This document shows positions 16,793 through 55,484 of a stretch of 55,484 bases of DNA, piece after piece; position 1 is the stretch's first letter, and each line of letters starts with the position of its first letter. Both the position numbers and the translations under genes were made by a program. This DNA is from Acidobacteriota bacterium. GTDB lineage: Bacteria; Acidobacteriota; Thermoanaerobaculia; UBA5066. The DNA lies in assembly GCA_029781975.1 (NCBI GenBank), contig JAKOVQ010000031.1, forward strand, positions 1 through 55,484, read 5' to 3'. The notes under the pieces are model-generated. The model was not told the origin of the DNA. It saw only the letters and a list, made by a program, of their open reading frames with translations, and ran no database searches.

Positions 16793-17548
16793 ATGCGTGA
16801 GGTCCGATCCGTCGTCAACGCCTTCTTCTACTTCGCGATCTTCCTCCTGCTGCGCGCCCTCTTCGTTCCAGGCCCCCCGGGAGGGAGCGGCCCCGCCCGC
16901 TTCGTCCACATGGAGATCCGGGAGAGCGGGCCCGGCGGAGAGCACGTCCGGCTGACGATCCCCCACTTCCTCTTCCGGAGCGGCCTGGCCCTCGCCTCGA
17001 CGCGCAAGCTCCAGCGGGAGCTGGACTTCCACACGGACGAGACCGTGGAGGTCTCACGCCTGCGCGAGATGTGGGCGGAGCTCTCGGGAAAGCCCGACGG
17101 GACCGAGGCGAAGCGCGCGATCGACCACTCCGAGGTCTCCATGCGTCGAGAGGGGGAGATGGTCGTCCTGACGATCTCCGAGCTCGATTGGCCTCCCGAG
17201 CCGCCCGACGTTCCTGAAGCTCCTGAAGCTCCGGAGGTTCCGGACGTCCCGGAGCCCCCGAAGCCGCCGTTGCCGGGTGCGACGCCCTCTCACGCGGCCC
17301 GGGTACCGCCTCCTCCCGCCGCCCCGACGGTGGCTCCCCCTCCGACCCCGGCTCCGGCACCCGCTCCCCGGCTCGACTCGAAGCGGACCTTGACGATCAA
17401 GTTCCCTATCCGCTTCTTCGAGGCCCTGACCCGCGACGAGGGGAGACTCGACATCCGCGGGCTCGTCCAGGAGATGCGGCGCGCGCGGCGCGGCGACGTC
17501 CTCGAGATCACGAGCGACGACGCGCGAGTGAAAGTCTGGCTCGACTGA
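16793..17548 (+). CDS. Membrane-anchored protein with duplicated domain, function unknown
   Basis: 251 residues; not recognised as a named family. ATG 16793 is preceded by GGGAG. A short N-terminal hydrophobic segment (about 9-25) is followed by a domain containing VRLTIPHFLFRSGLALAS and ending MVVLTISELDW. A Pro/Ala/Glu-rich linker follows (about 125-190), containing repeats of the PEAPE/PDVPEPP type. A second, shorter domain with LTIKFPIRFFEALTR closes with DVLEITSDDARVKVWLD. The two domains share the layout strand - helix (FLFRSGLALA / FRFFEALTR-like) - helix - strand, so they look like an internal duplication across a flexible linker. It is last in the TIGR02757-TlpA unit and is followed by the repeat island. 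Confidence 0.75.
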   Translation: MREVRSVVNAFFYFAIFLLLRALFVPGPPGGSGPARFVHMEIRESGPGGEHVRLTIPHFLFRSGLALASTRKLQRELDFHTDETVEVSRLREMWAELSGKPDGTEAKRAIDHSEVSMRREGEMVVLTISELDWPPEPPDVPEAPEAPEVPDVPEPPKPPLPGATPSHAARVPPPPAAPTVAPPPTPAPAPAPRLDSKRTLTIKFPIRFFEALTRDEGRLDIRGLVQEMRRARRGDVLEITSDDARVKVWLD

Positions 17549-17549
17549 A

Positions 17550-17831
17550 GTGAATCGGGGGAAACCCGGGCCCTTCGGGCCTGCCGCCGGTTCCCCCCGA
17601 ACCCCCCTCCGCGCCGGCTCCTCCCTTCGTGAATCGGGGGAACCCGGGCCCTGCGAGCCTGCCGCCGGTTCCCCCCGAGCCCCCCTCCGAGCCGGCTCCT
17701 CCCTTCGTGAATCGGGGGAACCCGGGCCCTGCGGGCCTGCCGCCGGTTCCCCCCGAGCCCCCCTCCGAGCCGGCTCCTCCCTTCGTGAATCGGCGCCAAC
17801 CCGGGCCCTTCGGGCCTGCCGCCGGTTCCCC
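17550..17831. repeat. Four tandem 78/79-bp hairpin repeats
   Basis: Units begin with GTGAATCGGGGGAA (fourth: GTGAATCGGCGCCAA) at 17550, 17629, 17707 and 17785, giving periods of 79, 78 and 78; the fourth is truncated. Each contains an inverted repeat GGGGGAACC...GGTTCCCCC (degenerate in the first and last units) enclosing a smaller stem GGCCC-TTC/TGC-GGGCC. The TTC to TGC loop changes and other substitutions between units show they are diverged copies. They lie directly downstream of the 16793-17548 gene. The length is a multiple of three in two of the periods, so reading frames run through them, but codon content does not look like a protein. Function unknown. Confidence 0.9.
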
Positions 17832-17854
17832 CACGCTCTTACAGGGGCCCCGAA

Positions 17855-17879
17855 ATCACGGATCACAGACCTGACCCCA
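17855..17879. repeat. 25-bp direct repeat, copy 1
   Basis: Begins ATCACGGATCACAGACC and ends TGACCCCA; identical over all 25 bases to 18166-18190. The motif resembles intergenic repeats I recall near REP-associated transposases, but that memory is unverified. A short tandem duplication (TGACCCCATCCCCGTT-like) follows at 17871-17903. Confidence 0.85.
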
Positions 17880-17929: not shown

Positions 17930-18134
17930 GGCGGGCGGCGGATGCCCCTGCGCGCGTCCGTCCGAGCACGGGCCGGGACCCGCTCGCCCGGCGGCGCGGC
18001 CCCGCAGGACCAGGCGGGCCTGCGGTCTGACGAGCGAATCGTGGAGTTCAGGCCCGCCCCGCAGGGGACGCGCCGCCGGGCGTAAGCGGGTGGCCCGCGC
18101 GCAGCGGACCGCGCAGGGGCGTCCGTCGCCCGCC
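17930..18134 (-). mobile_element. ~205-bp terminal-inverted-repeat element, copy A (MITE-like)
   Basis: The left end (17930-17954, starting GGCGGGCGGCGGATGCC) and the right end (18110-18134) form 25-bp inverted repeats with only a few mismatches. The interior is also palindromic, with GC-rich arms around a less GC-rich loop near 18028-18050. There is no coding capacity. The right arm and its flank (18070-18151) are nearly identical, reverse-complemented, to 55282-55380, and the left arm matches the right end of the window. The two copies therefore belong to one dispersed family in opposite orientations. An 8-bp stem (CTCGCGCC/GGCGCGAG, 17908-17928) adjoins the left end. No target-site duplication can be assigned confidently. 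Confidence 0.8.
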
Positions 18135-18165: not shown

Positions 18166-18190
18166 ATCACGGATCACAGACCTGACCCCA
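18166..18190. repeat. 25-bp direct repeat, copy 2
   Basis: Identical to 17855-17879, in the same orientation, 311 bp away, so the pair brackets the inverted-repeat element. An unusually AT-rich run (18190-18220) follows and leads to the stop codon of the aldo/keto reductase gene. Confidence 0.85.
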
Positions 18191-33100: not shown

Positions 33101-34534
33101 GTGACTGCGATCCCGATCCGCCTGCGCGGCGAGAGCCTCCCGGTGACGACGGAGCTCCTCGACCGCTACAACGTCCAGGGGCCCCGGTACACCTCGTATC
33201 CGACCGCCCCCGAGTGGACGGCGGCCGTCGGCCCCGACGACTTCCTCGCTGCCTGCGCGCGCGCGAACGAGAAGGGGCGGCCCGTCTCCCTCTACCTCCA
33301 CCTCCCGTTCTGCGAGGAGCAGTGCTGGTTCTGCGGCTGCTTCATGAAGGTCGTCCCGAAGCCCGACCGGAAGGGGGCCGAGCGGGGCGAGATCGAGGGG
33401 TACCTCGGCGACCTCCACCGCGAGATCGACTGGCTGGCGTCGCTCGTCGACCGGTCGCGCCCCGTCGTCCAGGCGCACTGGGGGGGCGGCACCCCGACGT
33501 ATCTCTCCCCCCGGCAGGCCGACGAGCTCGCGGCCCACCTCTTCGAGGCGTTCCCCTTGGCGCCCGGCGCCGAGGTCTCCGTCGAGATCGACCCGCGCGT
33601 GACGACGCCCGAGCACCTGGCCGTCCTCCGCCGGCGCGGCTTCAACCGCGTGTCGATGGGGGTGCAGGACTTCGACCCCGAGGTGCAGGAGCTCGTCAAC
33701 CGGGTCCAGCCGTTCGAGATGACGAAGGCCCTCGTCGACGCCTCGCGCGACCTGGGGTACCAGTCGCTCAACCTCGACCTCATCTACGGCCTCCCCGGCC
33801 AGCGGCGCGAGGGGTTCGAGGAGAGCGTCGACCAGGTCCTGACCCTCCGTCCCGACCGGATCGCGATGTACTCCTACGCCCACGTGCCGTGGCTCAAGAA
33901 GCCGCAGCGCGTCCTGGCGGCCCACCTCCCCGAGGGGACGGAGAAGTTCGCGATCTTCGTCTCGGGGATCGAGCGCTTCTCCGCGGCGGGCTACACCTAC
34001 ATCGGGATGGACCACTTCGCCCTCCCGCACGACGAGATCGCCCGCGCCCAGGAGGAGAGGACCCTCTGGCGCAACTTCCAGGGCTACACGACGCACGCCG
34101 GCGTCGACCTCTACGCCCTGGGGATCTCGGCCATCACGCAGGTGGACGACCTCTACGCGCAGAACACCAAGGAGTACGACGTCTACCACCGGACGACGCT
34201 CGAGGGGCGCCCCTCGACCATCCGGGGGCACCGGCTTTCGGGGGACGACCACCTGCGGCGGACGGTCATCACGAACCTCCTCTGCCACTGCGTCATCAAG
34301 AAGAGGGAGATCGAGGAGGCGTACGGCCTCGCCTCCTTCGACGAGACCTTCGCGCCCGAGCTCGGGCGGCTCGCCCCCCTCGTCGCCGACGGCCTCGTGG
34401 CGCCGGACCTCTCCGAGGAGATCCGGGTGACCCCCCTCGGTCGGATCTTCATAAGGAACGTGGCGATGGTCTTCGACCCCTACCTCGCGCGCCGCTCCGA
34501 CTCGGAGCCGAAGATCTTCTCCAGGACGCTCTAG
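33101..34534 (+). CDS. hemN: Oxygen-independent coproporphyrinogen III dehydrogenase (radical SAM)
   Basis: 477 residues; decarboxylates two propionates of coproporphyrinogen III without oxygen. The N-terminus has NVQGPRYTSYPTAPEW, typical of true HemN rather than the HemW-like paralogues. YLHLPFCEEQCWFCGCF carries the CX3CX2CXC motif of HemN: three Cys ligate the 4Fe-4S cluster. Further landmarks are WGGGTPTYLSP, RVSMGVQDFDPEVQELVNRVQ, DLIYGLPGQ and GMDHFALP. GTG 33101 has no Shine-Dalgarno; a TGTCATCAT at 33085-33093 could be an extended -10, 7 nt away. It heads the hemN-hemH-hemY-M1 group. Confidence 0.96.
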   Translation: MTAIPIRLRGESLPVTTELLDRYNVQGPRYTSYPTAPEWTAAVGPDDFLAACARANEKGRPVSLYLHLPFCEEQCWFCGCFMKVVPKPDRKGAERGEIEGYLGDLHREIDWLASLVDRSRPVVQAHWGGGTPTYLSPRQADELAAHLFEAFPLAPGAEVSVEIDPRVTTPEHLAVLRRRGFNRVSMGVQDFDPEVQELVNRVQPFEMTKALVDASRDLGYQSLNLDLIYGLPGQRREGFEESVDQVLTLRPDRIAMYSYAHVPWLKKPQRVLAAHLPEGTEKFAIFVSGIERFSAAGYTYIGMDHFALPHDEIARAQEERTLWRNFQGYTTHAGVDLYALGISAITQVDDLYAQNTKEYDVYHRTTLEGRPSTIRGHRLSGDDHLRRTVITNLLCHCVIKKREIEEAYGLASFDETFAPELGRLAPLVADGLVAPDLSEEIRVTPLGRIFIRNVAMVFDPYLARRSDSEPKIFSRTL

Positions 34535-34563
34535 TGTTCCCGGGGGTTTCTCGATCCCCCCGG
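34533..34563 (-). repeat. Dispersed 29-31 bp palindrome, copy 1
   Basis: Reverse complement of 41820-41850 over 31 bases; it begins inside the TAG stop of hemN. It forms a CCGGGGG/CCCCCGG stem around GATCGAGAAA. The similarity continues raggedly for ~25 nt on the GC-rich side. Confidence 0.85.
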
Positions 34564-34609
34564 CCCCCCCGAGGAAGGGGCGGAGGAGGAATGGCTTGTT
34601 GAGGCCGAG

Positions 34610-35668
34610 ATGACAGACGGAACGTCCCGGCCCGCCGGCCTCACCGGGGTCCTCCTGATCCAGCTGGGCGGACCGCAGAGCCGCGAGCAGCTCAAGCCGT
34701 TCCTCTACGAGCTCTTCGTCGACCCCGAGATCCTCGGGATTCCGTTCGCCCCGCTCCGGAAGCTGGCCGCCTGGTCCATCGCGACGCTGCGGGCGCCGAA
34801 GTCCGCAGAGACGTACGAGAAGATCGGCTGGTCGCCGATCCGCTGCTGGACCGAGAAGCAGGCGTCGCTCCTCGAGAAGGAGCTCGGCGAGGACGGCTCC
34901 GCCGGCCCCGTGATGGTCCGCGCCGGGATGACGTGCAGCGCGCCGTTCGTCGAGGAGGCGCTCGAGGAGATGAGGGCCGCCGGGGTGACGCGCCTCTTCG
35001 TCCTCCCGCTCTACCCGCAGTACTCGGTCACGACGACCCGCGGCTCCTTCGCGCGCGTCACCCGGGCCCTGTCGGAGATGCGCTGGACCCCCGAGCGGGT
35101 CGACGCCCCCGACGCCTGGTACGCCGAGCCGCAGTTCCTCGACGCGCACGCGGCCCGGATCGCGGAGGCCGCCTCGAAGCTCCCCGACCCGGACCCCGCG
35201 AGGACCGTCCTCCTCTACTCCGCCCACTCGCTCCCGGTCTCGACGGTGGAGAAGAAGAAGGACCCGTACCCGAAGCACGTCGAGGGGACGTGCGCCGCCC
35301 TCGACGAGCGGCTCGGGCACCGCTTCCGGTCGCGCCTCGGCTACCAGTCGAAGCTCGGGCCGGTGGCCTGGCTCGGCCCGTCGACGAACCAGGTCCTCGC
35401 GGAGCTTGCGGCCGAGAAGGTGCCGCAGGTCCTCGTCTGCCCGGTCGCGTTCGTCTCGGACCACGTCGAGACGCTGTACGAGATCCGGATGCTCTTCGCC
35501 GACGAGGCGAAGGCCCTCGGGATCCCGACGTACGTCGCCGTGGACGGCCTGAACGACCACCCCTCCTTCGTCTCCGCCCTCGCCGACATCGTCCGGAAGG
35601 GTCTTCGCGCCCCCGCGTCCCCCGCACCGCCCCCAGGCAAGCCGGAGCCCGCCCACCCCGCGTCGTGA
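34610..35668 (+). CDS. hemH: Ferrochelatase
   Basis: 352 residues; inserts Fe2+ into protoporphyrin IX. The N-terminal GVLLIQLGGPQSREQLKPFL is typical. The metal-site His is in LLYSAHSLPVS (about residue 205), and the conserved Glu in VSDHVETLYEI. KIGWSPI, YPQYSVTTTRGSF and YQSKLGPVAWLGPST are family landmarks. ATG 34610 follows a GAGGCCGAG purine run. It has a Pro/Ala-rich tail of ~20 residues. The stop overlaps the hemY start by 4 nt. Confidence 0.96.
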   Translation: MTDGTSRPAGLTGVLLIQLGGPQSREQLKPFLYELFVDPEILGIPFAPLRKLAAWSIATLRAPKSAETYEKIGWSPIRCWTEKQASLLEKELGEDGSAGPVMVRAGMTCSAPFVEEALEEMRAAGVTRLFVLPLYPQYSVTTTRGSFARVTRALSEMRWTPERVDAPDAWYAEPQFLDAHAARIAEAASKLPDPDPARTVLLYSAHSLPVSTVEKKKDPYPKHVEGTCAALDERLGHRFRSRLGYQSKLGPVAWLGPSTNQVLAELAAEKVPQVLVCPVAFVSDHVETLYEIRMLFADEAKALGIPTYVAVDGLNDHPSFVSALADIVRKGLRAPASPAPPPGKPEPAHPAS

Positions 35669-37125
35669 GGCGGATCGCCGTCCTCGGAGGCGGCATCTCC
35701 GCCCTGACCTTCGCCTACTGGCGGAGCCGCGCGGCCCGCTCCGACGACGGGGAGCCGGACGTCCGCGAGCCGGAGGAGATCGTCGTCCTGGACCCCTCGC
35801 CCGGCCCCGCGGGGTCGGGCTGGACGCTTCGCGAGGGGGACCTCGTCCTGGAAGCCGGCCCCCAGACCCTCCGGGAGACCCCCGCCGCGGCACGGCTTCT
35901 CGACGCGCTCGGGCTCCGCGACGAGGCCCTCGTCGCCGACCCGCGCGCCCGGCGCTGGATCGTCCGGAAGGGGCGTCCGCGCTCGTTCGTCGCAGGCCCT
36001 GCGGGCCTCCTCTCCGGGGTCCTCTCCCCGGGGGCGAAGCTCCGCGCCCTTTGCGAGCCCTTCGTCCCCCGGCGGCCGGCCTCGCTCGCCGACGAGTCGG
36101 TCCACGCCTTCCTCGAGCGCCGCTTCGGTGCGGGGGCCGCGCGGTCGCTCGCCGAGCCGCTCGCGTCGGGCATCCACGCCGACGACCCCGCGACGCTATC
36201 CGTCCGGAGCGCGTTCCCGACGCTCTGGGACGCCGAGGAGAGGGCAGGGAGCGTCGTCCGGGGCCTCCTCGTCCCGCGCCGGGGCGGCGGCCCGACCGGA
36301 AGGCGCGGGACGGGGGGGCGGCCGCCGAAGCCGCCGAACCTGCCGAAGCCGCGGACGATCAGCTTTCCCCGCGGCCTCGCGACGCTCCCCGAGGCGCTCG
36401 CCGCAGCCGTGGCGCGGCAGGGAGCCCGGGTCGAGAGGGACGTCCGTCTCACGTCGATCGAGGGGCCGCTCGACGCCGCCCGCGAGCCCCGGAGCCCCCG
36501 CGCGTTCCGGCTCCTCTCCGAGGACGGGAGGATGTTCGAGGCCGACGCCCTCGTCTCGACGCTCGACGCCCGATCGGTCGCCCGCCTCCTCGGCGGCCTC
36601 CTTCCCCGCTCGCGCGGCCGGCTCGCGGCCCTCTCGTCCTCTCGCTTGGCCGTCGTCCTCCAGGCCTTCCGGCTCGAGACCCCATCGGACGCGCCCCGGG
36701 GATTCGGCATCCTGATCCCCCGGGGGGAGGGATACCGCTCCCTCGGCCTCCTCCACCTCTCGTCCCTCTTCCCGTCGCGGACCCCTTCCGGCACCGCCGT
36801 CCTCACGTCGTTCCTGGGCGGCGCCCTCGAGCCCGGCCTGGCCGACGCCACCGAGGACGACCTCCTCCGCCTGGCCGAGGAGGAGGCGAGGCGCCTCCAT
36901 CCCGGGCTCGGGCCGCGAATCCTGGCGCGAACGGCGCGGTGGGAGGGGGCGCTCCCCCGGATCCCGGTGGGGCACCACGCCACGCTGGACCTCCTCGACC
37001 AGGACATCCATTCTCTCGGGGTGGCAAGGCCGCTCCCGTTGCTGGCGGTGACCGGGCCCTGGCGCGACGGTGTCGCCCTCGGCGAGCGGATCGCCCGCGG
37101 CGAGGAGCTGGCCGGGAGCTTCTGA
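35665..37125 (+). CDS. hemY: FAD-dependent protoporphyrinogen oxidase
   Basis: 486 residues; oxidises protoporphyrinogen IX to protoporphyrin IX. The FAD-binding start is RRIAVLGGGISALTFAYW. GWTLREGDLVLEAGPQTL and SFPRGLATLPEALAAAV are HemY/PgoX landmarks, and the C-terminus has LAVTGPWRDGVALGERIARG. A Gly/Pro/Arg-rich insertion (about residues 210-230, RRGGGPTGRRGTGG) is not typical. The GTG start overlaps the hemH stop by 4 nt. HemN is present upstream, so the classical protoporphyrin route is indicated. This enzyme class normally uses O2 whereas HemN does not. Confidence 0.93.
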   Translation: MRRIAVLGGGISALTFAYWRSRAARSDDGEPDVREPEEIVVLDPSPGPAGSGWTLREGDLVLEAGPQTLRETPAAARLLDALGLRDEALVADPRARRWIVRKGRPRSFVAGPAGLLSGVLSPGAKLRALCEPFVPRRPASLADESVHAFLERRFGAGAARSLAEPLASGIHADDPATLSVRSAFPTLWDAEERAGSVVRGLLVPRRGGGPTGRRGTGGRPPKPPNLPKPRTISFPRGLATLPEALAAAVARQGARVERDVRLTSIEGPLDAAREPRSPRAFRLLSEDGRMFEADALVSTLDARSVARLLGGLLPRSRGRLAALSSSRLAVVLQAFRLETPSDAPRGFGILIPRGEGYRSLGLLHLSSLFPSRTPSGTAVLTSFLGGALEPGLADATEDDLLRLAEEEARRLHPGLGPRILARTARWEGALPRIPVGHHATLDLLDQDIHSLGVARPLPLLAVTGPWRDGVALGERIARGEELAGSF

Positions 37126-37126
37126 G

Positions 37127-38971
37127 ATGAGACGACCGCCAACCGTCCCGTGCCCGAGCGAACGCGCCCTCGGGTCGCGCCGCGCCCTCCTCCTGCGCGT
37201 CCTCGGGAGCGCCGTCCTCGCCGCGATCCCCGCGGCGCTCCTCGTCGCCCGGCCCGCGGGCCCGATCCGCGGGGCGGGGCTCCTCGACGTCCCCGAGCAC
37301 GAGGAGGGGGCGGCCAAGCGGGCCCGGGCGAGGAGCGCGTCCTTCGAGAGGATGGCGCAGGGGATCCGGCCCCTCCACGTCGAGTCGGGGCCGAAGGGGT
37401 TCGACGTCCTGTCGTACGACGTCTCCCTCTCGCTCGACCCGGCGGTCCGCCAGCTCGAGGGGACGACGGCCGTCCGCGTCTCGTTCACGCGCGAGGGCGT
37501 GACGGCCGTCCGCCTGGACTTCGACCCGTCCTACGAGGTCCTCTCGGCCACCCGCGACGGCCAGGCCCTGACGGTCTCGCGGGCGGGCGACGGCGCGGTC
37601 CTCCTGCCCGTCGACCCGCCCCTCCACTCGGAGGAGAGGACCACCTTCACGGTGAGCTACCGGGGCGTCCCTCCGTCGCTCGGGGCCCTCGGCACCTGGA
37701 CGCACGCCTCCGGCACGGCGGCGTCGACGGTGGCCGAGCCGTTCGACGCGCGGACCTTCTGGCCCTGCGTCGACGACCCGGGCGACAAGGCGGTGACCAC
37801 CGTGAGGATCACGGTGCCGGACGCCTACACCGCCGTCTCGGCCGGCAGCGTCTCCACGGCGCCGGCGGCGGACGGGCGGACGACCCACACCTGGACGTTC
37901 GCGGAGCCGATCTCCACCTACCTCGTCTCGCTCGCCGTCGCGAACTACGTGAAGCTCGAGGCGACCTACACGTCCCTCGACGGGACCCGGACGATGCCGG
38001 TCGTCGGCTACGTCGTCCCCGAGCACGCGGCGTGGAACGCGGCCCGTGTCCAGGCGACGGTCGGGTACGTGCGGACCCTCGCGCAGCTCTTCGGCGAGTA
38101 CCCGTTCCTCTCCTACAAGTACGGGATGGCCGAGGGGCACTTCTCGGGCGGGATGGAGCACCCGACGGTCTCCCTCATCGGCGCCACCCAGCTCGGGAGC
38201 TCGACGCGCGACCTGACGTACCTCCTCGTCCACGAGCTCGCGCACCAGTGGTGGGGGGACGACGTCACCATGGCGACCTGGGACGACATCTGGCTCAACG
38301 AGGGGTTCGCGACGTACGCCGAGGTCCTCTACGCCGAGAGGGCCGCCGGGGCGAGCCCGGGCCGCCTCCTGACGACCCGCTACGACGACGGGCTGTACGC
38401 CGGGGCCCTCGGGCCGACGGTGGTCGCCCCGGTCGACGACCCGTTCCGCTACACCGCCTCCGTCTACGACAAGGGGGGCTGGGTCCTCCACATGCTCAGG
38501 CGCCTCGTCGGCGACGAGACGTTCTTCCGGGGCCTCGACGCCTACCGTCGCCGCTTCCGGCAGGGGAACGCCACGCGCGGCGACCTGAGGAGCGTCTTCG
38601 AGGAGGTCTCGGGCCGGGAGCTGAAGTCGTTCTTCGACCAGTGGGTCGAGACCCCCTTCCGTCCCGTCCTGAGGGTCGCCTACCAGCCGAGCGCCGACGG
38701 GACCTCGGTGGCCGTGGTCGTCCGCCAGGTGCAGGCGCACGACGTGGTCCACCCGCAGCCCTCGCCGGGCGACGTCGCCTGGTACGTCTTTCCGCTGACG
38801 ATCCGGATCGGGCACCCCGACGGCACCGCGGAGGACGCGACGACCTTCGTCGACGCACGCGAGGCGCACGTCACCGTCCCGACCCCGTCGCGGAAGGCGG
38901 TCTCCGATGTGGTCGTCGACCCCGACGGAGACCTCCTGAAGGTCGTCGAGGCGGTCGGACCGGGAGCCTGA
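37127..38971 (+). CDS. M1 family metallopeptidase (aminopeptidase)
   Basis: 614 residues. Basic N-terminus plus a hydrophobic segment (about 18-42) suggests export or membrane anchoring. The zinc site is HELAHQWW...NEGFATYAE (about residues 370-400). The exopeptidase motif reads GGMEHP, a variant of GAMEN with His in place of Asn. The preceding FWPCVDDPGDKA and the N-terminal beta domain fit M1 enzymes. ATG 37127 starts two bases after hemY, so it is in the haem unit although no haem role is expected. There is no ERAP-like C-terminal domain beyond about residue 600. Confidence 0.93.
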   Translation: MRRPPTVPCPSERALGSRRALLLRVLGSAVLAAIPAALLVARPAGPIRGAGLLDVPEHEEGAAKRARARSASFERMAQGIRPLHVESGPKGFDVLSYDVSLSLDPAVRQLEGTTAVRVSFTREGVTAVRLDFDPSYEVLSATRDGQALTVSRAGDGAVLLPVDPPLHSEERTTFTVSYRGVPPSLGALGTWTHASGTAASTVAEPFDARTFWPCVDDPGDKAVTTVRITVPDAYTAVSAGSVSTAPAADGRTTHTWTFAEPISTYLVSLAVANYVKLEATYTSLDGTRTMPVVGYVVPEHAAWNAARVQATVGYVRTLAQLFGEYPFLSYKYGMAEGHFSGGMEHPTVSLIGATQLGSSTRDLTYLLVHELAHQWWGDDVTMATWDDIWLNEGFATYAEVLYAERAAGASPGRLLTTRYDDGLYAGALGPTVVAPVDDPFRYTASVYDKGGWVLHMLRRLVGDETFFRGLDAYRRRFRQGNATRGDLRSVFEEVSGRELKSFFDQWVETPFRPVLRVAYQPSADGTSVAVVVRQVQAHDVVHPQPSPGDVAWYVFPLTIRIGHPDGTAEDATTFVDAREAHVTVPTPSRKAVSDVVVDPDGDLLKVVEAVGPGA

Positions 38972-38983
38972 GCCCCCTCAGGC
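38966..38983. terminator. Hairpin spanning two convergent stop codons
   Basis: A perfect 7-bp stem, GCCTGAG-CCCC-CTCAGGC. The TGA stops of the M1 peptidase (plus) and of the downstream gene (minus) each lie inside one arm. Confidence 0.5.
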
Positions 38984-40138
38984 CCCGCGCGACCCCGCGA
39001 GGGCGTTCAGGACGTCGCGCGCCGCAGCCTTGGCGTTGTCGGGGAGGCCGTCGCCCGAGCCGGGCCACTCCGCCCAGCGGACGTCGAGGCCCAGGCGCTT
39101 CATCTCCTCCGTCCCCTGCTTCATCGCCCGGATCAGCTCGGCGGGCGCCTCCCGCGCGGCGCCCATCAGGATCCGGGCGCGGCGGAGCCCCTGGACGGCG
39201 TTCGCGCCGCCCGGCCCCGGGTCGTAGGCGCCGCCGATCGACGCGACCCCCGCCCACGGACCCGGCTTGCGGGCCGTGTACTCCAGGGCGAGCTGCCCTC
39301 CGCGGCCGGCGCCGACGATGAAGACCGGGAGCTCCTTGCCGCCGGCCCGCTTCTCGGCCGCCGCGACGGCCGCGTCGAGCGCCGCCACGGCCCGTTCGGG
39401 CGCGCCCCAGCCGAAGCGGCGCTTGCCGGCACGGGCCGGGCCTCGCGGGGCGAAGAGGAGGAGGTTGCGGGCACGGGCCTCCTCGACGAACGGCCCGGCC
39501 ACGCTCATCGGGTCGGACGCGACGCCGTGGAGGACCACGAGGATCCCCGCGGGCTTGCCGCCCGGGGGCGGGAGGACGGTCGCCTCGGTGACGACGGCTC
39601 GGTCGCCGTCCGCCTTGTTCTTCCGCACCCCCGCGAGGACCGTCCCGAACCGCGGGCTCCCGCGGAGGGTGTCGAGGTCGTGGTCGGAGAGGAGGACCGC
39701 CTCCTCGTCGAACCCGGCGCCGACCGCCCGGTCGAGCTCGCGGAACGCCTCGTCGGCCTTCCCGGCACGCGCGTCGAGACAGGCGAGGTTGTACGGCGCG
39801 GTCGGGAGCTCGCCGGCCTTCCACGACTGCTCGAAGAAGCGGCGGGCCATGTCGAGCTCGCCCTTCTGGACGGCGGCCACGCCGAACCGCTCCAGCTGGT
39901 AGGGGTCCGTCGTGGCCCCCGTGAGGAGCCGGAGGTCCTCGACCTCGGCCTGGCGGGAGCCCGCCGGAGCGGCCGGGGCCGTGCCCTGGATGGTCCTGGC
40001 ATCGGCCTTCACCGGGCTCGAGGGAGACGCGGCAGGTTTCGGCGCCGGCGTGGAGGCGGGGGCGGGCTTCTGGGCCGCCGCGGGGAGGGCGAGGAGGAGG
40101 AGCGAGGCCGCGGCAGCAGCCCGGAAGGTTCTCGGCAT
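38978..40138 (-). CDS. Secreted TPR + alpha/beta-hydrolase-fold protein lacking the catalytic triad
   Basis: 386 residues. The signal peptide ends at about residue 22 (LLLLALPAAAQ) and is followed by an Ala/Pro/Lys-rich spacer. A TPR-like helical region comes next (about 70-150, including YNLACLDARAGKADEAFRE), then an alpha/beta-hydrolase fold starting GILVVLHGVASDP. The nucleophile elbow reads FIVGAGRGGQLAL, with Gly where Ser is expected, and the segment where His is expected reads PGSGDGLP, with Asp. Both changes are clear in the DNA. It is therefore probably a non-enzymatic binding or scaffold protein. Leaderless start from TAGAAT 8 nt upstream. Function unknown. Confidence 0.8.
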   Translation of the reverse strand: MPRTFRAAAAASLLLLALPAAAQKPAPASTPAPKPAASPSSPVKADARTIQGTAPAAPAGSRQAEVEDLRLLTGATTDPYQLERFGVAAVQKGELDMARRFFEQSWKAGELPTAPYNLACLDARAGKADEAFRELDRAVGAGFDEEAVLLSDHDLDTLRGSPRFGTVLAGVRKNKADGDRAVVTEATVLPPPGGKPAGILVVLHGVASDPMSVAGPFVEEARARNLLLFAPRGPARAGKRRFGWGAPERAVAALDAAVAAAEKRAGGKELPVFIVGAGRGGQLALEYTARKPGPWAGVASIGGAYDPGPGGANAVQGLRRARILMGAAREAPAELIRAMKQGTEEMKRLGLDVRWAEWPGSGDGLPDNAKAAARDVLNALAGSRGA

Positions 40139-40146
40139 CGCGGCGG

Positions 40147-40152
40147 ATTCTA
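40147..40152 (-). promoter_or_regulatory. Putative -10 (TAGAAT) for the TPR/hydrolase-fold gene
   Basis: CGTAGAAT followed by 8 nt (CCGCCGCG) and ATG 40138 on the minus strand; no Shine-Dalgarno. Confidence 0.6.
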
Positions 40153-40193
40153 CGGTCGGAGGCCCCGGGGGCGTTCCGCGCGCCGGGAAGGGC

Positions 40194-41735
40194 TCAGGGG
40201 AGGAGCCTCGTCAGGCGCCGGACGAGGCCCAGGACCCCCTGCCTGTAAGGGAAGGCGAAGAGGGAGGCGACGAGCCGGTTGACCGGCGCAAGGAGCGGCC
40301 TGCCGACGTTCACGACCGTCGTCCGGGTCCACTGCCGGAGCGACTCGGCCCCGTGCCTGGCGCCGAGGCCGCTCGCCTTGACCCCCCCGAGGGGCGCCGC
40401 CACCGTCAGGTAGTTGACCAGGACGTCGTTGACGATGACGTTCCCGCTCTCGATCCGCCGCGCGAGCGCCCGGGCCTCCCGCTCCGGCCCGAACACGGTG
40501 GCGTTCAGCCCGAGGTGCGAGGCGTTCGCGAGCCTCAGCGCCTCCTCGGCGTCCTTCACCCGCGTGATCCCGACGAGGGGGCCGAAGGTCTCCTCCCGGG
40601 ACATCTCCATCTCGGGGGTCGCGCCGGCGACGAGCGTCGGCTCGAAGAAGAGGCCTGGGAGGTCGGTCCGGCGCGCCCCGCCGGTCAGGACGCGCGCGCC
40701 GTGCGCGGTCGCCTCCGCCAGCTGCCCCTCGGCGACCTCGACCTGGCGCGGGACCGTCACCGACCCGAGGTCCTGCTCCCTCGCCCCCTCGGGGTCGGGG
40801 ACCGCCTGGCGGAGCGCCTTCACGCGCTCGACGAGGAGCCGCTCGAAGGCGTCGGCGACGGGCTCCTCGACCAGGATCCGCTCCGTCCGGATGCACGCCT
40901 GCCCCGAGGTGAAGAAGCTCGACCAGGCGGCCGCGCGGGCCGCCCGGGGGAGGTCCGCGCCCGCGAGGACGACGAAGGGCGCCTTCCCCCCGAGCTCGGT
41001 GACGCACGGGACGAGCCTTTCGCCGCACCGGGCCGCCACCCTCCGGCCGGTCGCGACCGAGCCGGTGAACATGACCCCGTCCGCCTCGTCGACGACCGCG
41101 GCCCCCGTCTCGCCCCGCCCCACGACGACCTGGAAGACCCCCTCCGGGTTCCCGGCCCGCCGCCAGAGCTCGGCCATCCGGAGGGAGGTGAGCGGGGTCA
41201 CCTCGGACGGCTTGAGGACGACGGCGTTGCCGGCGAGGAGGGGCGCGAGGGCGTCGGCGGCGTTGTTCAGGAGCGGGAAGTTCCACGGCCCCACCACGCC
41301 GACGACGCCGAGGGGCTTCCGCAGGACCTCCGCGCGGCGCGTCGCCATCAGGAGCGTGCTCCGGCTCTCGGACGCGAGGGCTCTCCGCGCGACGACCCCG
41401 TAGAAGCGGACCAGCTCGCAGAAGTAGAGGACCTCGATCGCCTCGGCCTCGTGGCGCGGCTTGCCGCTCTCGCGGACGAGGACCGCGGGGAGCTCCGGGT
41501 CGTCGAGCAGCGCCTTCCGCCACCGCCGGATCGCCCGGAGCCGCTCCTTCACGGGGAGGGCGGCCCAGCCCGGCTGCGCCCGCCGGGCGGCCGCGACGGC
41601 CGAGAGGACCCCGGCGCGGCCGGCGTCGGGAAGCTCGGCGATCAGCTCGCCGGTGGCCGGGTTGACGACGCGGATGGTCGAGGGAGCTGCGGCCGGTGCG
41701 GCGGCCGGCGCGACGACGTCAGCGGCAGTGGCCAT
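40194..41735 (-). CDS. Aldehyde dehydrogenase family protein
   Basis: 513 residues; NAD(P)-dependent oxidation of an aldehyde to an acid. Conserved: VGPWNFPLLN (Asn of the oxyanion hole), LKPSEVTPLTS, FTGSVATGRRVA, the general base Glu in TELGGKAPFVV, the catalytic Cys in FFTSGQACIRTER, and SREETFGPLVGI. The first ~20 residues are an Ala/Pro-rich tail, and the C-terminus adds ~40 basic/hydrophobic residues that could associate with membrane, as in class 3-like enzymes. ATG 41735 is chosen because TACGAT lies 6 nt upstream; the frame extends further through a repeat but that is not coding. Substrate unknown. Confidence 0.93.
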   Translation of the reverse strand: MATAADVVAPAAAPAAAPSTIRVVNPATGELIAELPDAGRAGVLSAVAAARRAQPGWAALPVKERLRAIRRWRKALLDDPELPAVLVRESGKPRHEAEAIEVLYFCELVRFYGVVARRALASESRSTLLMATRRAEVLRKPLGVVGVVGPWNFPLLNNAADALAPLLAGNAVVLKPSEVTPLTSLRMAELWRRAGNPEGVFQVVVGRGETGAAVVDEADGVMFTGSVATGRRVAARCGERLVPCVTELGGKAPFVVLAGADLPRAARAAAWSSFFTSGQACIRTERILVEEPVADAFERLLVERVKALRQAVPDPEGAREQDLGSVTVPRQVEVAEGQLAEATAHGARVLTGGARRTDLPGLFFEPTLVAGATPEMEMSREETFGPLVGITRVKDAEEALRLANASHLGLNATVFGPEREARALARRIESGNVIVNDVLVNYLTVAAPLGGVKASGLGARHGAESLRQWTRTTVVNVGRPLLAPVNRLVASLFAFPYRQGVLGLVRRLTRLLP

Positions 41736-41741
41736 GCGTCG

Positions 41742-41747
41742 ATCGTA
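41742..41747 (-). promoter_or_regulatory. Putative -10 (TACGAT) for leaderless aldehyde dehydrogenase
   Basis: CGTACGAT followed by 6 nt (CGACGC) and ATG on the minus strand; no Shine-Dalgarno. Confidence 0.5.
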
Positions 41748-41819
41748 CGCCGCCGCGCCGGCTCGGTCGTTCCGCGCGGCCGAGAAGTGTCCGCCCCTCC
41801 TCTCCCCCTCCGGGGGGGC

Positions 41820-41850
41820 CCGGGGGGATCGAGAAACCCCCGGGAACACT
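41820..41850 (+). repeat. Dispersed palindrome, copy 2
   Basis: CCGGGGGGATCGAGAAAC... to ...GAACACT, identical (reversed) to the copy at the hemN stop. First of two tandem copies downstream of the permease. Confidence 0.9.
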
Positions 41851-41856
41851 GCTGCC

Positions 41857-41885
41857 CCGGGGGGATCGAGAAACCCCCGGGATCA
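41857..41885 (+). repeat. Dispersed palindrome, copy 3
   Basis: Same core ending GGGATCA; it directly abuts the permease stop codon at 41886. The duplication with copy 2 has a 6-nt spacer. Confidence 0.9.
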
Positions 41886-43865
41886 CTACGTCTCGGCCTG
41901 GACGGGGATGATCACCGACTGCATCCCGTCCATCTGGAGACGGCGCTGGAGCGCGAACGGCGTCTGGTTGTGGAGGAGCCGGTTCGCGAAGTTCTCCCGC
42001 GGGAAGACGAGCTTCGAGGCGAAGAAGATGGGCCGGTCGAGCTCCTCCTTGACCTTTCGGCAGAGCTCGACGAGCTCGTCGAGGAGGTCGGTGCCCACCG
42101 CCATCCTCCCCTCCGCCCAGAGCCCGTTGCCGCGGGCGAACTCGACGTAGCGCGCGAGGTCCCGCTCGGTCTCGCGGCGGAGGTTCTCGATCTCGTCGAC
42201 CCCCTTGAAGTTGGCCGAGTCGACGACCCCCACGGAAAGGAAGACGACGTGCTTGAAGTAGCGCGGGAAGTAGCGCTGGACGCTCAGGAAGGAGTGGATC
42301 CCGAGGCCGTTGAAGCCCGAGACGAGGAAGACCGCGGTCGGCGTCGAGCGGCCGGGGGGAGCGAGGCTCGGGAACGCCCCCGACTCGCCGGCCTTCGGGA
42401 TCGTCGTCAGGACGTCGTCGGTCCGCCTGAGGAGCTGTCGGATCGAGGCGTAGTGCTTCTTGGTGACGACGCAGAGGGCGATGAGCGAGCCGGTGAGGAG
42501 GACCGTGACCCACCCTCCCTCGCGGAACTTCATCCCGACGGTCACCACCAGGATCGTCCCCGTCAGGAGGAGGCCGACCCCGTTCACGAGGAGCCGGTGC
42601 CGCCAGGAGGGCTCCTTCGCCCGCACCTTCCACCAGTGGACGCACATCCCGAGCTGCGACAGGGTGAACGTGAGGAAGACGTTGATCGAGTACATGACGA
42701 CGATGACGTCGATCCGCCCCCCCGTGTAGAGGAGGAGGCCGATGGCCGCGCCCCCCATGACGAGGATCCCGTTCTGCGTCACGAGCCGGTCGGAGAGGAG
42801 GCTGAAGCGGTGGGGGACCCACGAGTCGAGCGCCATGTTGGAGAGGACGCGCGGCCCGTCGAGGAACCCCGCCTGCGCGGCGACGAAGAGGAGCGCCCCC
42901 TCCGCCAGGAGCGTCAGCAGGACGAACGTCGACGCCGCCGGCCCGGCGCCGAAGGCCTCGAGCGACAGCTTCCTCGCCAGGACCGCGTTCAGGGTCTGCC
43001 CCTCGATCCGGTGGACCCCGGCCAGGAGGTAGCAGAGGATCAGCCCTCCGGCCGTCGTGGCGAGCGACAGCGCCATGTACGTCATCGTCCGGCGCCCCGT
43101 CTGGACGCGCGGCTCCCGGAGGATCTGCAGGCCGTTGGAGACCGCCTCGATCCCCGTGTAGGTCCCGCCGCCGAGCGAGAACGCCTTCAGGAGGAGCGCC
43201 AGCGTCCCGACGGCGCCCAGCGTCGCCCACGACTCCCGGGCGTCCCGCGTCGTGGCGGCCGCCAGCTCGGGGAAGGCCCCGACGTGGCGGCCGATCCCGT
43301 AGGCGATCAGGAGGGCGTGCGTGGCGAGGAAGAGGAGGAAGATCGGGAGGAGGACCTTGACCGACTCCTTGATCCCACGGAGGTTCAGGACGATGAGCCC
43401 CGCGACGACGAGGAGCGAGTAGGCGAGCTGCCGCGCCGGCGCGACGTCCCCGTGGAGCGAGGAGAGGGCCCCGACCCCGGCCGCGACCGACATCGCGATC
43501 GTCAGGGCGTAGTCGACCACGAGCGCCGCCCCCGAGACGAGGCCCGCCGCCGGCCCGAGGAGGTGCGTGGCGACGAGGTAGCCGCCGCCGCCGGTGGGGA
43601 AGAGCCCGATGATCTGCGAGTACGACGCCGAGATCACCGTGATGGTGACCGCGGTCGCGAGGGCGAGGAAGACGGCCAGGTGGGTGTGCGTCCCGAGGGC
43701 CACGAAGGTCTCCTCGGGGCCGTAGCACGAGGAGGAGAGGCCGTCGGCGCCGAGCCCGACCCAGGCGAGGAACGCGACGAGGGAGATGTGGTGGAAGACC
43801 CTCGGGTCGAGGGGGTCTCGGCTTTCTCCCAGGAGGACGCGCCGGAGGGTCCCGAAAGCGGCCAT
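41886..43865 (-). CDS. APC-superfamily permease (KUP/KimA-like), probable K+ or amino-acid transporter
   Basis: 659 residues, with 12 or so TM helices over residues 25-470 followed by a ~180-residue cytoplasmic domain. The N-terminus ISLVAFLAWVGLGADGLSSSCYGPEE resembles the TM1 break of APC carriers. GLFPTGGGGYLVAT (TM2-3), SLGGGTYTGIEAVSNG and the C-terminal VFLVSGFNGLGIHSFL are further cues. A cytoplasmic regulatory tail is typical of KimA-type potassium symporters, hence the suggestion, but amino-acid transport cannot be excluded. ATG 43865 lies 12 nt after TATACT. It is divergent from the DEAD-box gene. Confidence 0.78.
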   Translation of the reverse strand: MAAFGTLRRVLLGESRDPLDPRVFHHISLVAFLAWVGLGADGLSSSCYGPEETFVALGTHTHLAVFLALATAVTITVISASYSQIIGLFPTGGGGYLVATHLLGPAAGLVSGAALVVDYALTIAMSVAAGVGALSSLHGDVAPARQLAYSLLVVAGLIVLNLRGIKESVKVLLPIFLLFLATHALLIAYGIGRHVGAFPELAAATTRDARESWATLGAVGTLALLLKAFSLGGGTYTGIEAVSNGLQILREPRVQTGRRTMTYMALSLATTAGGLILCYLLAGVHRIEGQTLNAVLARKLSLEAFGAGPAASTFVLLTLLAEGALLFVAAQAGFLDGPRVLSNMALDSWVPHRFSLLSDRLVTQNGILVMGGAAIGLLLYTGGRIDVIVVMYSINVFLTFTLSQLGMCVHWWKVRAKEPSWRHRLLVNGVGLLLTGTILVVTVGMKFREGGWVTVLLTGSLIALCVVTKKHYASIRQLLRRTDDVLTTIPKAGESGAFPSLAPPGRSTPTAVFLVSGFNGLGIHSFLSVQRYFPRYFKHVVFLSVGVVDSANFKGVDEIENLRRETERDLARYVEFARGNGLWAEGRMAVGTDLLDELVELCRKVKEELDRPIFFASKLVFPRENFANRLLHNQTPFALQRRLQMDGMQSVIIPVQAET

Positions 43866-43877
43866 GCGCGATCTTTC

Positions 43878-43883
43878 AGTATA
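43878..43883 (-). promoter_or_regulatory. Putative -10 (TATACT) for the permease
   Basis: GGCTATACT, 12 nt before ATG 43865 on the minus strand, implying a leader of a few bases at most. Confidence 0.55.
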
Positions 43884-43912
43884 GCCGCCGGCGGCCCGGG
43901 ATCGTGGCGGGC

Positions 43913-43918
43913 TACAAT
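43913..43918 (+). promoter_or_regulatory. Putative -10 (TACAAT) for leaderless DEAD-box helicase
   Basis: GGGCTACAAT followed by 9 nt (GGGCGCCGG) and ATG 43928. This position selects ATG 43928 over the in-frame GTG at 43904, which lies upstream of the hexamer. Confidence 0.65.
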
Positions 43919-43927
43919 GGGCGCCGG

Positions 43928-45724
43928 ATGACTGACCCCGCCGCGGCCTCCGCGGACCACCTCTCGAACCTCTTCTTCCTCGACCTCGGCCTTCCGCACC
44001 CCGTCCAGGCAGGGATCGCCGCCTGCGGGTTCACACGCGCGACCCCGGTCCAGGCCGCCACTCTGCCGCTCCTCCTCCAGGGGAAGGACGTCGCCGCCCA
44101 GGCCCAGACCGGGACCGGCAAGACGGCCGCGTACCTCATCTCCATCCTGACCCGGCTCGTGACGAGCGACCCCCTGCCCGGGCGCCGCCCGGGGATGCCG
44201 CGCGCCCTCGTCGTCGCCCCCACGCGCGAGCTCGCCGTCCAGATCGAGCACGACGCGCACGCCCTCGCCCGGTTCGTCGGGCCGCGGATCGTGACCGTCT
44301 ACGGGGGCCTCGACTACGCCCGGCAGCGCGACCAGCTCCGCGCCGGGTGCGAGGTCCTCATCGGGACCCCGGGGCGCCTCCTCGACTACGAGGGGCAGGG
44401 AGCCACGTCGTTCGGCGCGGTCGAGTCCCTCGTGATCGACGAGGCCGACCGGCTCTTCGACCTCGGGTTCATCAAGGACCTGCGCCGGATCCTGAGGCGC
44501 TGCCCGCCGGCCCGGAGCCGCCACTCGATGCTCTTCTCCGCGACCCTCTCCTGGCGCGTGATGGAGCTGGCGTGGGAGCACATGAACGACGCCGTGCGGA
44601 TCGAGATCCGCCCGGAGCAGCTGACGGCCGACCGCGTCGTGCAGACGCTCTACCACGTCTCCGCCTCGGAGAAGACGTCGCTCCTCCTCGGGCTCCTCGG
44701 ACACGAAGGGCCGGACACGCGGAGCATGCTCTTCGTCAACACGAAGCGGTACGCCGAGCGGCTCGTCGCCGTCCTGGAGCGGAACGGCTTCCGCGCGGGC
44801 GCGCTCAACGGGGACATCCCCCAGGCCCGGCGCCTCAAGATCCTCTCGGACTTCAAGGCCGGGAAGATGCCGATCCTCGTCGCGACGGACGTCGCGTCGC
44901 GGGGCCTCCACATCGACGGCGTCACGCACGTCTACAACGTCGACCTCCCGCAGGACCCGGAGGACTACGTCCACCGGATCGGGCGGACGGCCCGCGCGGG
45001 CCAGTCGGGGAAGGCGATCTCCCTCGCCTGCGAGGACTACGTCTGGTCGCTCGACGCCATCGAGAGGCTCCTCGGGACGAAGATCCCCGTGGCGCACGCC
45101 GAGGACGCGCTCTACGCGCGGGTCGAGCGGGGCGCTCCCCCTCCCCGGCCGACGCTGGTCTCGGGAGGGAGCCACCGGGGCTCCTCCTCGAGACGCCCTC
45201 CCCTGCGCGAGGAGCCGGAGCCGCTCGAGGAGCCCGCCCCACCCGTCCCGCGCCCCCCGGCCGCGGTCGCGGAAGGCCCCGCGCGTCCCCGGCACGTCCC
45301 CGCCGCGATCCCGCCGGCACCCGTCGTCGCGGAGGCCCCGGCCCCGGCCGCGGTCGCAGCCCCGGTCGCGGTCCCGGTGGCGGCCCTCGTCGCCGCCGGC
45401 TCCGATTCACCGGCCGGTCCGCGGCTCGTGAGGGACGGCGGCGAGGCGATCGAGCCCGGGACGACGGCGACGGAGGCCGGGACGGCCCCCGAGACCGCCG
45501 AAGGCGAGGGGATGGAGGCCGGACCCGCCGTCCCCGACGTGGCGACCGCCGACTTCTGGGTCCGCGAGGCGTTCTCCCTCGAGATCCCGGAAGGGGGGTT
45601 CGGCGTCTCGTCGTCACCCGGCGCGCCGGGCGCGGCTCCCTCCGCCCAGAGGAAGAGGCGCCGGCGGCGCCGGAAGCCCGGCTCCGGGGCCGCGGAGGCT
45701 CCGGTCCCCGTCACCGAGCCCTGA
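43928..45724 (+). CDS. DEAD-box RNA helicase (RhlB/RhlE-like) with low-complexity tail
   Basis: 598 residues; ATP-dependent RNA unwinding. All core motifs are present: Q motif around FTRATPVQAATLP, I AQTGTGKT, Ia PTRELA, Ib TPGRL, II DEAD, III SAT, V ATDVASRGLH, VI HRIGRTARAGQ. The core ends at about residue 390; the remaining ~200 residues are Pro/Ala/Glu-rich and end in a basic cluster RKRRRRRRK. Such tails usually bind RNA or partner proteins. Rho is encoded 2.5 kb away, convergently oriented. The start is set by the -10 position. Confidence 0.95.
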   Translation: MTDPAAASADHLSNLFFLDLGLPHPVQAGIAACGFTRATPVQAATLPLLLQGKDVAAQAQTGTGKTAAYLISILTRLVTSDPLPGRRPGMPRALVVAPTRELAVQIEHDAHALARFVGPRIVTVYGGLDYARQRDQLRAGCEVLIGTPGRLLDYEGQGATSFGAVESLVIDEADRLFDLGFIKDLRRILRRCPPARSRHSMLFSATLSWRVMELAWEHMNDAVRIEIRPEQLTADRVVQTLYHVSASEKTSLLLGLLGHEGPDTRSMLFVNTKRYAERLVAVLERNGFRAGALNGDIPQARRLKILSDFKAGKMPILVATDVASRGLHIDGVTHVYNVDLPQDPEDYVHRIGRTARAGQSGKAISLACEDYVWSLDAIERLLGTKIPVAHAEDALYARVERGAPPPRPTLVSGGSHRGSSSRRPPLREEPEPLEEPAPPVPRPPAAVAEGPARPRHVPAAIPPAPVVAEAPAPAAVAAPVAVPVAALVAAGSDSPAGPRLVRDGGEAIEPGTTATEAGTAPETAEGEGMEAGPAVPDVATADFWVREAFSLEIPEGGFGVSSSPGAPGAAPSAQRKRRRRRRKPGSGAAEAPVPVTEP

Positions 45725-45742
45725 TCGCGCGGGCGCGGCGGG

Positions 45743-45748
45743 TATCAT
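45743..45748 (+). promoter_or_regulatory. Putative -10 (TATCAT) for the hydrolase gene
   Basis: GGTATCAT, 21 nt before ATG 45770. Here a GGGAGGTG site follows, so the leader is short but carries a Shine-Dalgarno, in contrast to the leaderless genes. Confidence 0.45.
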
Positions 45749-45769
45749 GGGGCGGCCGGGAGGTGCCCG

Positions 45770-46579
45770 ATGCCCTTCGCGTCCGTCAGGGGAGCTCGCT
45801 TCTACTACGAGGTCGGCGGACAGGGCGACCTCGTCATCCTGCTGCACGGCGTCCTGGCGAACGCCGACATCATGGAGGCGCCCGCCACCGGGCTCGCATC
45901 GGGGTTCCGGGCGGCGCGGCTCGACCGGAGGGGGTGCGGCCGGACGACCCCTCCGACCGAGGGACCGGTCCCCCTCCAGGAGGAGGCGGCCGACGTCCTC
46001 GCCCTCCTCGACTGGCTCTCCATCGAGAAGACGCACTTCCTCGCGCACGACGACGGCTGCGAGGTGGCGCTCGAGTTCGCGCTCTCGCACCCGGAGCGGA
46101 CCGGCTCCGTCGGCCTCCTGGCACCCTCCCTCGAAGGGTTCCCGCTGAGCCCCGAGGCGGCCGCCGCCGCGGCCGACCTGCGCGCCGCCCTGAAGGCCGA
46201 CCACGCGAAAGCGCTCGAGGAGAAGCTCTTCCCCTCGGTCCTCTTCGACGTGACGCGGGAGCACGAGGGGATGTACGAGCGGGTGACGGACATCTTCCGG
46301 CGCTACCCGATCAGCCCCGGGCGCCTGGACCGGACGCCGCGCGCCGGCGCCGCGCTGGCCGGGAGGCTGGGGCAGGTCTCGGCTCCGCTCGAGGTCCTGG
46401 TCGGCGAGCGCGACGAGCCGGACAGGGTCCGCTGCGCCCAGGCGATCGCGGCGGGAGTCCCCGGCGCGGCGCTCGAGATCATTCCGGACACCTCGCGCTT
46501 CCTCCACGTCGAGGAGGCGCGGCTCGTCATGCGCCGGCTGACCGACTTCTTCCTGCCGGAGCCTGAGATCGAGCGCTGA
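45770..46579 (+). CDS. Alpha/beta hydrolase with atypical triad
   Basis: 269 residues, a compact single-domain alpha/beta hydrolase: LVILLHGVLANAD (oxyanion HG), RLDRRGCGRT, a nucleophile elbow FLAHDDGCEVALEFA, and the acid Asp in LVGERDEPD. The nucleophile position is Asp rather than Ser, as in haloalkane dehalogenases and epoxide hydrolases (HDWG-type elbow). The position normally holding the catalytic His reads DTSRFLHVEE, that is Arg, with a His three residues on. Activity is therefore uncertain: either the nearby His serves, or the enzyme is inactive. No signal peptide. ATG 45770 is preceded by GGGAGGTG. Confidence 0.8.
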   Translation: MPFASVRGARFYYEVGGQGDLVILLHGVLANADIMEAPATGLASGFRAARLDRRGCGRTTPPTEGPVPLQEEAADVLALLDWLSIEKTHFLAHDDGCEVALEFALSHPERTGSVGLLAPSLEGFPLSPEAAAAAADLRAALKADHAKALEEKLFPSVLFDVTREHEGMYERVTDIFRRYPISPGRLDRTPRAGAALAGRLGQVSAPLEVLVGERDEPDRVRCAQAIAAGVPGAALEIIPDTSRFLHVEEARLVMRRLTDFFLPEPEIER

Positions 46580-46601
46580 CGCTGGTCACCCCCGGGGGGG
46601 G

Positions 46602-46630
46602 CCGGGGGGATCGAGAAACCCCCGGGATCA
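46602..46630 (+). repeat. Dispersed palindrome, copy 4
   Basis: Same core as 41857-41885 (CCGGGGGGATCGAGAAAC..., ending GGGATCA). It lies between the convergent hydrolase and rho stops. Confidence 0.9.
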
Positions 46631-55297: not shown

Positions 55298-55484
55298 GGC
55301 GGGCGGCGGATGCCCCTGCGCGGTCCGCTGCGCGCGGGCCACCCGCTTGCGCCCGGAGGCGCGCCGTCCGCGGGGCGCGGCAAAACTCGCTTCGCTCAGA
55401 CAGTTGCCGCGCTGATCCCGCTCCCGGCGCGCCCCCGGGCGAGCGGGTCCCGGCCCGTGCTCGGACGGACGCGCGCAGGGGCAT
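55298..55484 (+). mobile_element. Terminal-inverted-repeat element, copy B (cut by window edge)
   Basis: The first 25 bases equal 17930-17954 exactly. The region 55282-55380 matches, reverse-complemented, the right arm of copy A, including its ACCGTGCGAGC flank. The last 13 bases of the window are the start of the opposite terminal repeat, so about 12 more bases are expected beyond the edge. The centre (55380-55412) has a less GC-rich loop containing AAAACTCGCTTCGCTCAG, different from the copy A loop. Confidence 0.8.

Follow-up and report, generated by a model that had tools for sequence, protein, structure and literature searches.

A REP-like palindromic repeat inserted beside stop codons in one family of Thermoanaerobaculia

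U-tract-less, or 'I-shaped', terminators are GC hairpins that stand after genes and carry no T run. According to the available text of PMC3733652, REPs that separate co-directional or convergent genes often lie less than 20 bp from the 3' end of the upstream gene; a GTAG terminus in many cases provides the TAG stop, and the CGTC class shows no association with genes for transposases. PMC2817692 describes two inverted REPs as the constant flanks of a RAYT gene, and PMC12306157 attributes a reduction of translation to E. coli REPs less than 16 nt away from a stop. As far as the available text of PMC3733652 allows the comparison, the repeat described here resembles the GTAG and CGTC REPs as a short, stop-adjacent GC palindrome found in the same intergenic settings; it differs from them in having no tag, a TGA/TGT-like head, a second C-run past the stem, head-to-tail arrays and a nearly always sense orientation.

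The window, meaning the whole stretch of 55,484 nucleotides analysed, is the complete contig C39 of the genome G000 (5.37 Mb). An earlier note on this DNA had pointed to a four-copy palindrome, and all four copies are exact at the places it gave: the 19-mer GGGGGATCGAGAAACCCCC is found at 34542-34560 (-), 41823-41841 (+), 41860-41878 (+) and 46605-46623 (+), and allowing up to 3 mismatches yields only these four, against a mean of 0.10 and a maximum of 1 in 100 shuffled windows. The quoted hairpin is a genuine palindrome, but the strand in sense with the genes is its complement, GGGGGTTTCTCGATCCCCC. The gene context also held: the first copy begins inside the hemN stop, an amino-acid permease gene (PF13520) ends in a stop at 41886-41888 against which the 41857 copy sits, followed by its tandem partner, and the last copy separates the convergent alpha/beta hydrolase and rho genes. 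This last copy, at 46602, is sense relative to rho and not to the hydrolase. The features are as follows.

34532..34534, +, TAG stop of hemN (TIGR00538), its AG common to the repeat head
34534..34577, +, repeat copy 1, sense with hemN, exact core, 60.6 bits with model R1
34540-34546 / 34557-34563, +, stem of the copy 1 hairpin, with its loop at 34547-34556
41850..41886, -, repeat copy 2, directly 3' of the permease stop, exact core, shortened tail, R1 36.4 bits
41806..41849, -, repeat copy 3, head-to-tail with copy 2 at 37-nt spacing, exact core, complete tail, R1 61.6 bits
46588..46631, -, repeat copy 4, sense with rho, flanked by the 3' ends of rho and hydrolase, exact core, R1 57.9 bits

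The palindrome is the core of a repeat of about 45 nt, TGWTCCY-GGGGG-TTTCTCGATC-CCCCC-RG-RCCCCCC, which adds to the hairpin a second C-run as well as a conserved head. The consensus was built from 170 copies of G000 and relatives, all preselected by a core with at most 2 mismatches. On the gene strand it shows the head TGWTCC, in which neither a GTAG nor a CGTC tag is present, the stem YGGGGG / CCCCCR with one further outer pair, and the loop TTTCTCGATC; beyond the stem come G, R, the CCCCCC of the second C-run and, less strongly, CCGGGG. Covariation is seen at two outer pairs of the stem. Among the 170 copies one of them is T-A in 90, C-G in 54 and T-G in 11, the other C-G in 136 and G-C in 13, and standard pairing reaches 155/170 and 151/170 where shuffling predicts 126.7 and 126.9. 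In a diverse set (n=18), nine cells are altered on both sides, a figure equalled by 1 of 500 shuffles, and slid partners score lower. Folding energy did not separate the window copies from shuffles, z-scores being uninformative in such GC-rich DNA, and Rfam gave no window match above the gathering score.

The outer stem varies with compensation and the loop does not. The earlier note had called the loop invariant; within the family it is constant but for a few variants, whereas sister families with the same arms carry other loops. To judge from sequence, recognition of the constant loop by a protein or RNA is possible. Young copies share their loop by descent, which weakens its constancy as a sign of recognition. 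Arrays comprise two to five copies set head to tail with a spacing of 36-79 nt; all those listed are unidirectional, and the alternating orientation of BIMEs is absent from them. A resemblance of GTGTTCCC to CRISPR repeats was dropped because this spacing is variable.

With up to 2 mismatches, G000 contains 55 copies (36 exact, 9 with one mismatch, 10 with two), and the reversed control none. Among 60 relatives scanned, G006 (MAG-257, JAEUQS01) is the richest with 133 matches, and the species G004, G009 and G011 of genus g5, together with G012, have 1-7 copies each. Lone two-mismatch matches in G001, G013, G018, G038 and G059 were set aside as chance, their flanks being devoid of head and tail. 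A covariance model matched 6 of 148 Thermoanaerobaculia genomes, all in one family; they are 6 of its 14 genomes, most of which are without any copy. An exact scan of 84,980 species retrieved five assemblies, exclusively Acidobacteriota or Thermoanaerobaculia. No exact match was found in IMG/VR, and a viral carrier was rejected. Our literature searches found no work on such a repeat in Thermoanaerobaculia. At two loci, L047 and L033, long 47-nt tandem arrays reach the ends of contigs C31 and C49, so that copies there may be too few in the assembly and these two contig ends may adjoin each other.

The position at or just after stop codons, noted for the window, is genome-wide and stricter than had been claimed, being confined to one strand. 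All genomes compared are draft MAGs, and genes were called with our own codon-usage gene finder, which is crude; the placement counts score coding frames directly. The arrays with enough flank to be tested were 31 of 33 in G000, 65 of 79 in MAG-257 and 8 of 9 elsewhere, and 92 of these 104 have a coding stop on the same strand within 60 nt upstream (30/31, 54/65 and 8/8, respectively). At random sites the proportion is 5.3% in G000 and 2.9% in MAG-257; copies are not equally frequent inside genes, the distribution that the earlier note held against its own reading. With regard to orientation, 62 arrays have a sense stop only, 5 an antisense stop only, 30 both and 7 neither, and the two-sided probability of 62 versus 5 is near 1e-13 if sites are independent. 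Of the 96 arrays with a usable neighbour (those with no neighbour, an overlap or a very long spacer were dropped), 81 have the head at most 12 nt from the stop, when about 36 would be expected under uniform placement in the same spacers. The median gap is 2 nt between stop and head and about 40 nt on the tail side. The MAG-257 arrays at distance 4 (13/60) provide the stop of the gene through the TGA of the head itself, and 38/60 distances are in the reading frame of this TGA. Copy-bearing genes of G000 end in TAG in 19/31 cases, compared with 30/100 in a background set that overlaps them.

By the cut-off, 12 arrays have no sense stop. L048 of G000 is just under the coding cut-off with a TAG in place; tRNA genes lie upstream of L115 and L147, at about 11-12 nt, and of a copy in L096, at about 58 nt; L087, L110 and L134 lie downstream of U-tract terminators by scan. 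A copy at L118, judged by eye, also stands after such a terminator.

Copies are found between the genes of ribosomal proteins S3 and L16 (rpsC/rplP), IF3, L35 and L20 (infC/rpmI/rplT), ATP synthase gamma and beta (atpG/atpD) and gyrase B and A (gyrB/gyrA). They also split the pairs encoding succinyl-CoA ligase subunits, Omp85/OmpH and carboxyltransferase/biotin carboxylase; co-transcription of all these genes is deduced from gene order. The next gene often starts 20-60 nt beyond the copy. Such operon positions imply that the copies would be transcribed and read through, an outcome that the earlier note had named as contrary to its reading, and they speak against its suggestion of a terminator module without a U tract. 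A terminator or attenuator made of a GC hairpin and a C-rich tail, possibly linked to Rho and selected at gene ends, would agree with the strict sense placement after genes, tRNA genes included, with the covarying stem and with the presence of a rho gene that itself ends in a copy; Rho-dependent attenuation has been reported for E. coli BIMEs. It nevertheless appears unlikely, because co-transcribed essential genes are separated by up to three copies in tandem. Insertions of one to three copies ahead of gyrA are seen in single species, our scan detected neither a T tract nor a terminator-like site at the copies, whose tail is RG-RCCCCCC, and four copies stand behind ordinary U-tract terminators. 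The repeat is probably not an efficient terminator; partial attenuation is possible. Like the I-shaped terminators, it places a GC hairpin downstream of genes with no T run; it is distinguished from them as a repeated family with a constant loop, located inside operons and polymorphic between species.

This polymorphism is visible at individual junctions. In the g5 comparison, the number of copies at gyrB/gyrA is zero in G013, one in G009 and three in G011. At the agmatine deiminase junction, stop and start overlap (as ATGA or GTGA) in G011, G009 and G013, and in G004 two copies directly follow that stop; fsa/DUF507 is filled in G011 and empty in G004, G009 and G013 (these two names were assigned by eye). 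At rpsC/rplP, compared in 12 genomes, G000 has a copy and G001 a sister hairpin with its own TGA just ahead of the old TAA; in G007, congener of G001, and in eight more the spacer is short and bare, and in G003 it is longer and of a different kind. At atpG/atpD, inspected by eye, MAG-257 carries a copy, G009 and G011 a hairpin with a different loop after the same stop and G001 yet another hairpin after the stop; none was seen in the others, including the congener G004. Since some of the same junctions are empty in congeneric species, the copies are insertions at stops, and the idea of a mobile palindrome, also raised in the earlier note, gains support. The repeat multiplies, forms head-to-tail arrays and inserts at gene 3' ends in the direction of the gene, the head at the stop. 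Its sites are coding stops and, in a few cases, the ends of tRNA genes or positions behind terminators; across congeneric species, a given junction can have no copy or as many as three. One site has ATGA on either flank, and the repeat head itself also reads ATGA; from the junctions compared, neither the exact joined base nor a target duplication could be fixed.

Could the copies be instead a fixed RNA regulatory element, a 3'-end site for a protein or small RNA that is selected at each site and does not move? From genus to genus the loop stays the same and the outer stem covaries, the placement is one-stranded, and some junctions are shared: bamA/skp has one copy in both G000 and MAG-257, and moxR-like/DUF58 (named by eye) has copies in all three g5 species where the junction was seen, which could reflect selection. 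On the other hand, when 32 copy-bearing genes of G000 were used as queries, 5 matched a copy-bearing gene of MAG-257 at E<=1e-5, three of them at less than 40% identity. Congeneric species are without copies at most junctions examined, as are most genomes of the family altogether, and we judge a fixed element to be quite improbable.

The plan of the repeat extends to sister families. A search for the head-arms-tail pattern with a free loop revealed other loops in G000, G002, G003, G005, G006 and G013. In no genome did the control exceed one match per strand; in G004 and in G013, control matches are as numerous as the real matches on one strand. The window holds one such tandem, after a gene without Pfam or NCBIfam match.

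17551..17832, +, sister-family tandem of four 78-nt units, the fourth degenerate, directly after the stop 17546-17548

These units follow the plan TGAATC-GGGGG ... CCCCCC-GR-CCCCCC, as in the repeat, with a different loop. The head-arms-tail plan is common to the families, and each has its own loop.

A classical REP would be moved by a resident RAYT, a Y1 tyrosine transposase. Genes with Y1_Tnp matches are present in 8 of the 14 genomes of the family, with one in G000 and one to three per g5 species, and REPs elsewhere also adjoin stops in the available text of PMC3733652. Yet no Y1_Tnp match was found in MAG-257, the richest genome (133 copies; 83% complete), the palindrome is absent from all eight RAYT loci fetched, and the Y1_Tnp gene of G000 lies between two oppositely oriented copies of another repeat, GGGGTCAGGTCTGTGATCC, which also occurs twice in the window. 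For these three reasons the palindrome is not the repeat of the resident transposase; RAYT was rejected as its partner, and a classical RAYT-moved REP is very improbable. Set against the RAYT-associated REPs and BIMEs of PMC2817692, our repeat is likewise a repeated extragenic palindrome with an unpaired head, solitary or clustered, but the fetched RAYT genes are without a copy, the richest genome yielded no RAYT and arrays do not alternate.

Other repeats were noticed in passing. A second one, GGGGTCAGGTCTGTGATCCGTGATCC, lies in the window at 17867-17878 and 18178-18189 (-) and at L153 at 1422 (+) and 2420 (-), flanking the single RAYT-like gene of G000 in inverted orientation; it is probably this transposase's own repeat. 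G003 shows ten Y1_Tnp matches, several in 326-aa frames, and a recent transposase expansion there is possible. A long inverted repeat pair joins window positions 17942-18134 and 55298-55484 (91 nt at 87%, 57 nt at 98%); the contig probably breaks at a dispersed repeat, the second inverted arm reaching its end.

We favour, at a probability of roughly 0.7, a mobile palindrome of a REP-like and non-autonomous kind, about 45 nt long, which would be transcribed and would lie where the terminating ribosome can reach it. An enzyme other than the resident REP-type transposase would recognize the folded hairpin as single-stranded DNA and join it strand-specifically beside stop-like head sequences (TGA or TAG); insertions within genes would be lost, hence the survivors would cap genes. 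No mobilising gene was identified among the genomes analysed. In RNA, by analogy with stop-proximal E. coli REPs, a GC hairpin 0-10 nt past the stop could hinder the terminating ribosome, or could block 3' exonucleases, and in either way tune the upstream cistron. Seen from sequence alone, the likeness to the ribosome-stalling REPs in the excerpt of PMC12306157 would be that of a hairpin at most 15 nt from the stop. A function at the RNA level does not explain every site, because copies after U-tract terminators, where little RNA is expected, are in sense orientation too. Possibly, though this is tentative, the insertion machinery itself recognizes sense-strand gene 3' ends (coding stops, tRNA ends and post-terminator sites), for example via a transcription-coupled single-stranded DNA or an RNA intermediate. 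If true, this would be a short bacterial repeat with its orientation set by transcription, and with sister families that share the head-arms-tail plan and differ in the loop.

Under a broad definition of REPs, as imperfect palindromes of 20-40 bp in many extragenic copies, the repeat belongs with them (55 and 133 copies in G000 and MAG-257; 92/104 arrays after gene ends), and at g5 gyrB/gyrA, agmatine deiminase and fsa it shows the empty and filled sites in close relatives that characterize a mobile element. It works like a REP and, by the tests made, is not in the GTAG, CGTC or RAYT classes. Stop-adjacent REPs are already published, and this repeat is a variation on them: a stop-capping element that inserts between essential co-transcribed genes, in one orientation, without a transposase identified. 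Its natural empty and filled pairs offer a way to test how REPs without a RAYT are moved, and how a hairpin lying inside the terminating ribosome's footprint affects the upstream cistron.
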